Shown in pieces: positions 60,717-62,995 of a stretch of 64,000 nt of DNA (its first letter is position 1; each line of letters opens with the position of its first letter). Both the position numbers and the translations under genes were made by a program. This DNA is from Mycolicibacterium pulveris. Lineage in GTDB: Bacteria; Actinomycetota; Actinomycetes; Mycobacteriales; Mycobacteriaceae. The stretch lies in NCBI RefSeq assembly GCF_010725725.1, contig NZ_AP022599.1, positions 4,898,001-4,962,000 of the forward strand, in the 5' to 3' direction. The notes under the pieces are model-generated. The model was not told the DNA's origin. It worked only from the letters and a program-made list of their open reading frames with translations, and did no database searches.

Positions 60717-60923
60717 GCGATCAGGATGCCGCGCCGTATGCGACCACGGAATGAGTAGTACTACGCGAGTCGCCGCGCAACACTCCGCGGTAGCGACATG
60801 TTGGGGACGCCTCAGCGACACCGAAACCGCTGGACGCGGCCGTGCCGTTGGGGCGCGAAACCATAAGAGACCACCAAGTCTGCAGGCGCCCCCTGCGTGC
60901 GCAGAAAGTGCCTCTGACCTGCG

Positions 60924-60997
60924 TCGGGCTGACAGGATTTGAACCTGCGACCACTTGACCCCCAGTCAAGTGCGCTACCAAACTGCGCCACAGCCCG
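60924..60997 (-). tRNA. tRNA-Pro (anticodon GGG)
   Basis: A 74-base tRNA: acceptor CGGGCTG pairs with CAGCCCG, the anticodon stem CTTGA/TCAAG encloses the loop CTGGGGG (anticodon GGG), and the T arm is GCAGG-TTCAAAT-CCTGT. The discriminator base is A. CCA is not encoded. Its 3' end faces the acyltransferase islet. Confidence 0.95.
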
Positions 60998-61031: not shown

Positions 61032-61985
61032 CTACCGCAGAGCGCTGGGCTCGCCCCAACCCACCGTCGCCGTCGTCGCCGTGTCCGCGGCCACCTCCGG
61101 CGTCTGCTCCACGGGCACGAACCGGGGTGCGCGCGACGTGCGCCACGCCACCATGAGCAGCGTCGCCCACGCCACGGCGATCGTGGCGTACACGCCCGTC
61201 GACCACGGCCATTCGATGCCGAAGTAGTGCACCAGCTTCTGGCTGTTGGTCAGCACGATCACGCCGCCTACCGCCGTGCCCAACAGCGCGGGGCTGACAC
61301 GGCTGACCAGCCAGGCCGCGAACGGCGCCGCGACCACCCCGCCGATCGCCAGGCCCGCGACGATCGGCAGGTTCGCGATGAACTGTTCGCGCAGGCCGAC
61401 GACGAAGCCCGCCGACGCCGCGGCCGCCACCAGGAATTCCGACGCGCTCACCGACCCGATCACCGTGCGCGGCGCGGTCTTGCCCCGCGACAGCAGCGTG
61501 CTCGTCGTCACCGGCCCCCAGCCGCCACCGCCCGACGCGTCGATGAACCCGCCGAACAACCCCAACGGGCTGAGAAACCGGGCCCGATGCGGGGTCGCCC
61601 CGTGCCGCAGCACCGGCGGGTTGCGCAGCGAGAACCGCAGCACCACATAGGCGCCGATCGCCACCAGGATCGCGGCCATCAACGGCGCCGCGTGCTCGGT
61701 CGACAACGCCGACAACACCGTCGCGCCGGCGAACGCCCCGACGGCTCCGGGCACGCCGAGCTTGAGCACGATCGACCAGTCGATGTTCTTGAACCGCCAG
61801 TGCGACAGCCCGGACGCCAACGTGGTGCCCACCTCGGCGAGGTGCACCGCGGCGCTGGCCTGCGCGGCGCCGACCCCGCTGAGCACCAGCAGCGTCGTGG
61901 CGGTCACGCCGAACGCCATGCCCAGCGCGCCGTCGACCAGTTGGGCACCAACGCCGACGAACGCGAAGATCAGAAGCGAACGCAT
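61032..61985 (-). CDS. TauE/SafE-type sulfite/sulfonate exporter (paralogue 1)
   Basis: A 317-residue membrane protein of the TauE/SafE family, with two repeated halves of hydrophobic helices: FVGVGAQLVDGALGMAFGVT and FGGFIDASGGGGWGPVTTST are the characteristic Gly-rich turns of each half. It would move sulfite, sulfonate or a related anion. The ATG 61985 has no good ribosome site and lies 66 bases after a short leader ending in Cys-Cys, consistent with attenuation control. Confidence 0.88.
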   Translation of the reverse strand: MRSLLIFAFVGVGAQLVDGALGMAFGVTATTLLVLSGVGAAQASAAVHLAEVGTTLASGLSHWRFKNIDWSIVLKLGVPGAVGAFAGATVLSALSTEHAAPLMAAILVAIGAYVVLRFSLRNPPVLRHGATPHRARFLSPLGLFGGFIDASGGGGWGPVTTSTLLSRGKTAPRTVIGSVSASEFLVAAAASAGFVVGLREQFIANLPIVAGLAIGGVVAAPFAAWLVSRVSPALLGTAVGGVIVLTNSQKLVHYFGIEWPWSTGVYATIAVAWATLLMVAWRTSRAPRFVPVEQTPEVAADTATTATVGWGEPSALR

Positions 61986-62010
61986 GGGGTTCGGCAGCTT
62001 TCGACTAAGA

Positions 62011-62031
62011 GGTCATGCGCAACGCGTGACC
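62011..62031 (-). promoter_or_regulatory. Hairpin in the leader of the TauE-type gene
   Basis: GGTCACGCG and CGCATGACC (minus strand) form a nine-base stem with one mismatch around a TTG loop. It lies between the stop of the Cys-Cys leader peptide and the TauE start. It could be the attenuation or ribosome-site-masking structure. Confidence 0.45.
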
Positions 62032-62051
62032 GAAGGACTAGTGGGGCGCGG

Positions 62052-62162
62052 TCAGTTGTGCGCGCAACACCACTCGTCGAAAGCCATCAGCCGACGTGAC
62101 GGCCAGAACGGCTCCAACGCGCAGAGGGCCGACGGTGCGATGCGGAACTCGCGTTCAGCCAC
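62052..62162 (-). CDS. Short leader peptide ending in Cys-Cys; candidate cysteine-responsive attenuator
   Basis: A 36-residue reading frame from GTG 62162, preceded by GAGGGAGAC. It begins VAEREFRIAPSALCALE and ends AFDEWCCAHN, with adjacent TGT and TGC codons (62064-62069) three codons before the stop. It lies 50 bases after one TauE-type gene and 66 bases before another. Short polycysteine upstream frames are known in mycobacteria as cysteine-sensing attenuators of sulfur genes; slow decoding of the Cys codons when cysteine is scarce alters downstream expression. Sulfur transport context fits. Regulation, not the peptide, is the likely role. Confidence 0.65.
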   Translation of the reverse strand: MAEREFRIAPSALCALEPFWPSRRLMAFDEWCCAHN

Positions 62163-62212
62163 CTGTCTCCCTCTCGCGGATCGCCGGTCTTTCGGCAGCC
62201 TACCCAAGGCGT

Positions 62213-62995
62213 CTACACCGTCAGCAACCGGTACAGGCCGATTGTTCCCACGACGACGATCACCGCGCGCAACGCGTTCGGGGACAGCCGCCGCCCGTAG
62301 TGCGCGCCGAGGTAGCCGCCGATCAGCGATCCGACCGCGATCAGCCCGGCCGCCTCCCAGCTGATCCGGTCGAACGCCACGAGGATGTACGCCGCGGCCG
62401 CGACGACGTTGACCACCAGCGACAGCAGGTTCTTGGCCGCGTTCATCCGCTGCATGTCCTCGGGCAGCAGCGCGCCCATCGCGGCGATCAGCATGATGCC
62501 CTGCGCGGCGGTGAAGTAGCCGCCGTAGACGCCGATCGCGAAGGTGGCCGCCACCAGCGCCGCCATCCGCGTCGCGGACAGGTCGTCGGCGGACCGGCCG
62601 GCGGCCTCGGCGCGTCGCCGCGCATAGGCCTGAATCCGCGGGCCCACCACCACCAGTGCCAACGCTGCGACCAGCAGCACCGGCACCACCTGCTCGAACA
62701 CCGTCTCCGGCAGGTGCAGCAGCAGAAACGCGCCCAGACCCGCGCCGACGAACGAGGCGGGCAGCTGCCACGCCAGCCGTCGCCACTGCCCGCGCAGCTC
62801 GCGCCGGTACCCCCAGGTGCCCGACAGGCTGCCCGCCACCAATCCGACCGCGTTGGACATCGTCGACGTCACCGGCGGATAGCCGAGCGCCACCAGCGTC
62901 GGGAACGTGATCAGTGTGCCGGAGCCCACGAGCGCGTTGATGGCGCCGGCGCCGACGCCGGCCAACGCGATCAAGATCATGTCGACGACGGGCAC
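62213..62995 (-). CDS. TauE/SafE-type sulfite/sulfonate exporter (paralogue 2)
   Basis: A 260-residue membrane protein: LAGVGAGAINALVGSGTLIT and YPPVTSTMSNAVGLVAGSLS in the first half, FAIGVYGGYFTAAQGIMLIA and MNAAKNLLSLVVNVVAA in the second are the TauE/SafE repeats. About eight helices. GTG start at 62995. The leader peptide and TauE paralogue 1 follow on the same strand, so all three may lie on one transcript. Confidence 0.9.
   Translation of the reverse strand: MPVVDMILIALAGVGAGAINALVGSGTLITFPTLVALGYPPVTSTMSNAVGLVAGSLSGTWGYRRELRGQWRRLAWQLPASFVGAGLGAFLLLHLPETVFEQVVPVLLVAALALVVVGPRIQAYARRRAEAAGRSADDLSATRMAALVAATFAIGVYGGYFTAAQGIMLIAAMGALLPEDMQRMNAAKNLLSLVVNVVAAAAYILVAFDRISWEAAGLIAVGSLIGGYLGAHYGRRLSPNALRAVIVVVGTIGLYRLLTV

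Follow-up and report, generated by a model that had tools for sequence, protein, structure and literature searches.

A 36-codon reading frame lying between two TauE-family genes of Mycolicibacterium pulveris apparently represents a large family of actinobacterial leader peptides that has so far gone undescribed, and whose conserved feature is a sequence of about 17 residues closing with a single cysteine encoded by UGU. The frame is found on the minus strand of a 64,000 nt stretch of contig NZ_AP022599.1 (RefSeq assembly GCF_010725725.1, positions 4,898,001 to 4,962,000), the whole of which is referred to here as the window. The favoured interpretation, with a probability of roughly two in three, is that of a cis-acting leader responding to cysteine starvation, in which a conserved nascent peptide is joined to one slow Cys codon. 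A cis-acting role tied to cysteine or sulfur supply appears well supported by the conservation of the peptide, the codon rule and the gene context, and cysteine shortage is the condition under which the leaders probably turn on sulfur genes.

Conservation of the leader peptide

The leader frame (62052..62162, minus strand) consists of 36 codons and a stop, extending from a GTG at 62162-62160 to a TGA at 62054-62052, and encodes VAEREFRIAPSALCALEPFWPSRRLMAFDEWCCAHN; its last codons read ...LEPFWPSRRLMAFDEWCCAHN. The Shine-Dalgarno-like (SD-like) sequence GAGAGGGAG (62167..62175, minus strand) stands just 5' of the GTG, and a sequence of this type precedes the leader in 58 of the 59 mycobacterial relatives and in 14 of the 15 from Rhodococcus. 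The frame and ribosome site described in the initial annotation of this DNA are thus both real. Downstream, 66 nt separate the leader stop from the ATG of the first TauE-family gene, TauE1 (61032..61985, minus strand), and the second, TauE2 (62213..62995, minus strand), lies 5' of the leader.

The whole motif is present directly upstream of a TauE1 relative in 85 of 110 loci, the latter comprising two collections with species in common, and this conservation is far beyond chance. An earlier count of 86 included a locus (L024) with only a 3'-end remnant: at this locus of Mycolicibacterium tusciae the last leader codons (RWCCPRL, stop) remain before TauE1, and the upstream part has been replaced. 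No leader was found at 23 of the 110 loci, from Corynebacterium (10), Nocardia (6), Nocardioides (3) and, with one each, Millisia, Microbacterium, Gordonia malaquae and a metagenome-assembled genome of the Pseudonocardiaceae; one further locus (L042), truncated by a contig end, is counted neither with nor without a leader.

Comparison of distinct leaders over their last 14 codons gives a ratio of nonsynonymous to synonymous differences (pN/pS) of 0.09 in frame for Mycobacterium, where the two alternative frames give approximately 2 and 17.5, and of 0.28 in frame for Rhodococcus, against 1.6 and 1.5. The amino acids of the core, which in mycobacteria reads ALEPFWPSRR..AFDEWC, are nearly invariant, whereas third codon positions vary; the N-terminal part of the leaders is variable. 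These ratios indicate that the peptide is under purifying selection in the annotated frame. The conservation of the frame, on which the initial annotation depends, is therefore confirmed. The same annotation took the Cys-Cys end to be the core of the leader, and the codons TGT-TGC do stand at 62069-62064 of the window, but the second of them (UGC, codon 33, 62064..62066, minus strand) is not conserved: of 55 distinct mycobacterial leaders, 32 have Cys at this position, 22 have Arg and one has Pro, so that 23 lack the second Cys. All 13 distinct leaders from Rhodococcus have Cys here.

The leader probably forms a unit with its own promoter and a short 5' untranslated region of about 30 nt, because the pattern TANNNT is enriched 32-62 nt upstream of the leader start, being found there in 52 of 59 mycobacterial and all 15 rhodococcal sequences where shuffled sequences would give 16.1 and 2.0, respectively. 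In the window, this placement identifies TAGGCT (62197..62202, minus strand) as a putative -10 element; a consensus scan of the leader region for TTGACA/TATAAT produced no match.

Codon usage at the conserved cysteine

The conserved Cys codon (codon 32, 62067..62069, minus strand), at which the ribosome is proposed to stall, is UGU in all 181 distinct leaders, representing 131 distinct cores. This constancy was not forced by the search, as the profile searches ran on protein. It contrasts with the 102 UGC and 18 UGU codons in the longest downstream open frames, which were used as the background and may not always be the true genes, and with the Cys codons ahead of the conserved one in the same leaders (66 UGC versus 16 UGU). 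Those past it are mixed (46 UGC versus 58 UGU). The base following the conserved UGU is T in 97 leaders, as it is in the window, C in 79, A in five and G in none, making a pyrimidine in 176 of 181; in the background, G follows the Cys codon in 51 of 120 cases. The p values for these codon rules assume independent sequences, which leaders are not; the weightier argument is that UGU has no exception in any family.

Leaders of a different kind, those of the NCBIfam entry NF042934, follow the same rule, with UGU in all 20 scored and a pyrimidine next in every one, although the pattern used for scoring missed 10 of 30 loci; these leaders often occur in the same genomes as the present family. The anticodon of tRNA-Cys is GCA, and a sulfur-containing modification lies beside it. 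It is conceivable, if rather doubtful, that the combination of UGU and a next base other than G, common to the two kinds of leader, gauges decoding of the wobble codon by tRNA-Cys(GCA), with sulfur status sensed through the sulfur modification of the tRNA as well as its charging. Were this so, actinobacteria would own one translational sulfur gauge mounted on two different peptide motifs.

Distribution among actinobacteria

A profile built from 22 leader peptides was used in six-frame searches of genomes. Matches at E ≤ 0.01 were found in 58 of 348 genomes in a sample of the order and 67 of 394 in a sample of the class; the two samples have genomes in common, and some of their weak rows will be chance matches. 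In a sample of the phylum, 11 of 346 genomes matched at E ≤ 0.001, and in the family of one genome with several leaders (G421) 12 of 60 did so. From the order and class matches that lacked a locus, 60 rows were inspected as extra loci. The recurrent arrangement is the motif FW..R[RQ]...FD..C with a stop 0 to 14 codons later, followed by a gene, and leaders occur in at least 11 actinobacterial families (f1, f2, f4, f5, f9, f14, f16, f21, f32, f33 and f43, as numbered by the search tool). Several leaders may be present per genome, G421 having five matches and G441 four; the M. pulveris genome has one. In G421, one locus (L171) holds two family leaders about 1.3 kb apart, at approximately 980 and 2260, the first of which precedes a TauE gene. 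Two weak profile matches without a terminal Cys (L188 and L222) were excluded from the leader counts, and another locus (L193) has the motif and the Cys, but was missed by the stricter patterns and so stands outside those counts.

The window peptide has no Pfam match at E ≤ 0.01, neither it nor a Rhodococcus peptide matches NCBIfam at E ≤ 10, one leader peptide each from Streptomyces and family f9 has no NCBIfam match at E ≤ 0.01, and region 61900-62300 has no match in Rfam at E ≤ 5. The names that the source gives, where present, to the best 120 of 160 homologues of a Streptomyces member are 'hypothetical protein' or 'Uncharacterized'. The strings FWPSR, FWPTR and FWPGR were not found in the literature searched, outside which most subscription papers fall.

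Genes downstream of the leaders

The genes behind 120 distinct leaders were sorted by tblastn with representatives, which were typed using Pfam and NCBIfam. This set overlaps the TauE set and is not phylogenetically independent, and the representatives come from the same loci, so that single cases match themselves. Winged-helix regulators follow 27 leaders, TauE proteins 23, carbonic anhydrases 20, cysteine dioxygenases 19, SBP_bac_5 binding proteins eight, SsuA-like binding proteins seven, an untyped family four and flavin mononucleotide (FMN) monooxygenases three; the rest are six single cases, among them the O-acetylhomoserine/O-acetylserine sulfhydrylase MetY, a DUF4395 protein and an NMT1-like binding protein (L189), and three without assignment. 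A direct sulfur reading can be given to 53 of the 120 (TauE, cysteine dioxygenase, SsuA-like, FMN monooxygenase and MetY), although the SsuA-like representative (L142) scores 161 bits, just below the SsuA cut-off of 163.5 bits. Linkage to sulfur genes is thus recurrent.

Relatives of the winged-helix protein also occur 3' of cysteine dioxygenase at five loci (L139, L140, L144, L179 and L185). Leaders of 40-50 residues ending in DLEPFWPSRQHHDFDRVCC precede a small winged-helix (Trans_reg_C) gene at L149-L157, L159-L161 and L163-L167, a group of family f33 and genus g96 whose assignment to Streptomyces is inferred. The untyped family (L184, L186, L192 and L206) carries YTRSKPVDYSRGG near the start of its proteins, and no Pfam (E ≤ 1e-4) or NCBIfam (E ≤ 0.01) entry matches that of L184.

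TauE1 is a CysZ-like putative sulfur oxyanion transporter that matches Pfam TauE. It aligns at 58% identity over 264 residues with a protein from Corynebacterium (L067), the gene for which follows those for CysD, CysN and CbiX. CbiX is directly upstream in six Corynebacterium loci, with CysD and CysN typed in two of the six, and this order is the arrangement of C. glutamicum cysDNYZ. In one study, C. glutamicum with cysZ deleted no longer grew on 2 mM sulphate or sulphite, and its product, which belongs to the same TauE family, was proposed to be a sulphate permease (PMC1266029). Uptake consequently appears likelier for TauE1 than the export of sulfur anions put forward in the initial annotation, because of this close homology to a protein in a cysDNYZ-like arrangement. 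The likeness has its limits: the Corynebacterium loci, unlike the window, lack a leader, TauE1 stands apart from cys genes in the window as judged by open frames only, and the comparison was with L067 rather than with the CysZ sequence itself.

TauE2 likewise matches Pfam TauE, and the pair had been regarded as paralogues; the family assignment holds for both, but it is the sole trait that they share, with no similarity detected by BLASTP (E 0.94). Of the 85 leader loci, 57 have TauE2 5' of the leader and 11 have it 3' of TauE1; in the other 17 it was not seen. As its order varies while the leader remains, the leader stays with TauE1. In the 11 loci with TauE2 downstream (L016, L017, L020-L022 and others), the leader would head a single unit with both TauE genes; L016 was identified from its coordinates and the other loci named from their differing upstream sequences. 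A tRNA-Pro gene (anticodon GGG; 60923-60997, minus strand) is located closely 3' of TauE1 in the window.

Predicted RNA pairing and the proposed mechanism

In the proposed mechanism, the conserved FWPSRR..AFD chain would lie within the exit tunnel when the ribosome is at the UGU codon. If cysteinyl-tRNA were short, the ribosome would wait there with its footprint covering the A-F-D codons, which would otherwise be paired with the start region of TauE1; the Shine-Dalgarno site of TauE1 would open and the transporter would be made. With ample cysteine the ribosome would leave and the site could close again. Stalling, cysteine as the signal and the direction of control are put forward with more assurance than the final release of the ribosome site.

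The two regions in question are complementary. Codons M-A-F-D of the leader (UGGCUUUCGAC, 62076..62086, minus strand) form one side of a predicted helix with GUCGAAAGCUG (61995..62005, minus strand); the helix has 11 contiguous pairs, including two G-U pairs, and is part of the minimum-energy fold. Its gene side holds GAAAG (61998-62002), a plausible SD-like site 12 nt 5' of the TauE1 ATG that persists, slightly altered, in most of the aligned relatives from mycobacteria, contrary to the earlier statement that TauE1 has no good ribosome site. The larger fold linking the leader codons to the TauE1 start region has a z of -3.0, better than 198 of 200 shuffles. Across TauE loci, the longest helix at the A-F-D codons averages 6.9 in Mycobacterium as against 3.9 in shuffled sequences (26 of 58 at p 0.05), and 7.6 as against 4.1 in Rhodococcus (10 of 15). 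When a ribosome footprint was modelled on the window, the mean openness of GAAAG rose from 0.01 without a ribosome to 0.54 once UGU occupied the A site; averaged over 59 mycobacterial sequences, the corresponding values are 0.31 and 0.45, with 0.34 when the ribosome is at the stop codon. Cleaner modelled switches, closed again at the stop, were obtained for L014, L028, L037, L095, L096, L099 and L103. A ribosome-site switch is plausible, on this modelling, for the TauE genes, but does not appear to be general, and where the gap to the gene is long the leader may instead act on transcription.

The hairpin that the initial annotation described as having a nine-base stem exists (62011..62031, minus strand), but has eight pairs and one C.A mismatch, and when folded alone is not unusually stable (-10.6 kcal/mol, z -1.1). 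It has no U-tract, and as no terminator-like site was found in 61900-62450, its candidacy as a terminator was rejected. On the modelled folds, release of a sequestered ribosome site would fit the window better than a terminator.

Several observations weigh against cysteine starvation acting through such a switch. The modelled GAAAG of the window is as open with the ribosome at the stop codon (0.58) as at UGU, and the same opening results for any A-site codon from seven before to two after UGU, which is thus not singled out. The 15 rhodococcal sequences show no opening in the model. RNAalifold picks the helix between the A-F-D codons and the Shine-Dalgarno site in Rhodococcus, but not in Mycobacterium, and no covariation was found when this helix was searched for it. 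Outside TauE genes the longest helix is barely above chance (5.7 as against 5.2 in shuffles; 13 of 83 at p 0.05); pairing with the Shine-Dalgarno site as a general rule was dropped on this result, which was obtained by trying several starts, as true start codons are not known. With respect to gene content, the sulfur link is unproven for the 20 of 120 leaders preceding carbonic anhydrase and the 27 preceding winged-helix genes, and cysteine dioxygenase, which degrades cysteine, fits oddly with induction by cysteine shortage. Finally, one frame upstream of a Bac_luciferase-type gene (L194, genome G439) has the motif and then a stop before the Cys (LEPFWPGRRSDAFDGF, stop). This exception could reflect sequencing error or loss.

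Comparison with described leader peptides

Polycysteine leader small open reading frames of mycobacteria were reportedly the subject of work by Canestrari in 2020. Like the present family, the mycobacterial leaders before cysA2, Rv0485 and nirA have Cys codons at the leader end ahead of sulfur genes; a 2015 study describes a Cys cluster before cysA2 and Cys enrichment in the others (PMC4633059). A 2005 study describes mycobacterial cys operons with polycysteine leaders and without terminators, and leuA leader codons that pair with the Shine-Dalgarno box (PMC1262725). M. smegmatis cysteine genes are placed under translation attenuation, with citation of Canestrari 2020, in PMC13236596. The polycysteine leaders differ from the window family in their run of Cys codons, in place of which the latter has a long conserved peptide, and in being leaderless, whereas the window leader has an SD-like site and a prospective 5' untranslated region.

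The NF042934 entry (cis_reg_atten, 'putative leader peptide', of the RRHVDL/RRAVDL..C type) likewise describes short frames in which Arg-Arg is conserved and a Cys lies close to the stop, but its motif and spacing differ. Membership of the window family in NF042934 was rejected, the profile cut-off not being reached by the tested peptides; an RRHVDL peptide at L158 does have an NCBIfam match at E ≤ 0.01. Elsewhere in the M. pulveris genome (L239, G000:C1:3095996-3096052) is a polycysteine-tailed leader, LTKRRAVDLCRVAGSFCCCCSC, which matches NF042934 at 43 bits. A true polycysteine-tailed leader is therefore held by the same genome, and two leader types coexist in it. In the sequence features tested, the window leader fits neither of the described kinds.

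More distant parallels can be drawn from further reports. The actinobacterial leuA LEU element (PMC1262725), unlike the window family, has a run of leucine codons and a conserved pseudoknot, and serves other genes. The alphaproteobacterial cysS leader uORFC-8-2 (PMC8632094) also has conserved Cys codons, thought to sense the charging of tRNA-Cys, but these are tandem and predominantly UGC, and are accompanied by an intrinsic terminator. The copper-sensing upstream frames CutF and CruR (PMC9973294, PMC9426467) are similarly conserved, contain Cys and control the downstream operon; their signal and phylum are different, and they are likened by description rather than motif. The passages on cysteine or sulfur leaders available from the papers cited here do not describe the window motif. 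Taken with these systems, the leader probably works like known cysteine leader peptides.

Alternative explanations

The same leader and stall could act on transcription rather than on the ribosome site, for example through Rho-dependent termination between leader and gene, an alternative considered less likely overall. In its favour, many family members are separated from their gene by approximately 80 to 490 nt and show no clear Shine-Dalgarno pairing, and Rho was proposed for polycysteine leaders without terminators (PMC1262725). In the TauE loci, however, the gap is short (43-73 nt) and complementarity between the leader codons and the Shine-Dalgarno site exceeds that of shuffles, and the window has no intrinsic terminator-like site.

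Alternatively, the leader could be an arrest peptide whose signal is some other molecule, such as sulfite, sulfide, sulfate, a thiol or cysteine itself when free in the tunnel; the Cys would then belong to the sensor instead of marking a hungry codon. The peptide is conserved well past the needs of a codon-counting attenuator, the leaders stand 5' of genes that break down sulfite and cysteine in addition to those for uptake, and the copper-sensing leaders (PMC9973294, PMC9426467) offer Cys-containing precedents. This nevertheless seems rather improbable, since a side-chain sensor would leave the absence of UGC from 181 leaders unexplained.

A small protein acting in trans, for instance on the transporter, would account for the strong amino acid conservation, but is highly implausible given that the same C-terminal motif stands 5' of unrelated genes, up to five times per genome, with a variable N-terminal part and a codon rule that would be useless to such a protein. 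The Cys-Cys attenuator with a terminator hairpin and sulfite export, as first suggested, has scarcely any likelihood left, for although TGT-TGC, the hairpin and the TauE gene are all present, 23 of the 55 distinct mycobacterial relatives lack the second Cys, there is no terminator-like site and the gene is CysZ-like; what survives of it is a cis-acting leader apparently tied to cysteine or sulfur supply, without a polycysteine frame.

Biological significance

If the cysteine-starvation leader is correct, annotation of Mycobacterium, Rhodococcus, Streptomyces and their relatives would have missed a level of sulfur regulation, in which a single leader family heads genes for the uptake of sulfate and sulfonate, for cysteine breakdown and for assimilation. 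The presence of the leader alone would then hint at gene function, as for the Streptomyces winged-helix regulator and the untyped YTRSK proteins. The UGU codon would also be a clear example from nature of one synonymous codon fixed across families, and one that is directly testable.

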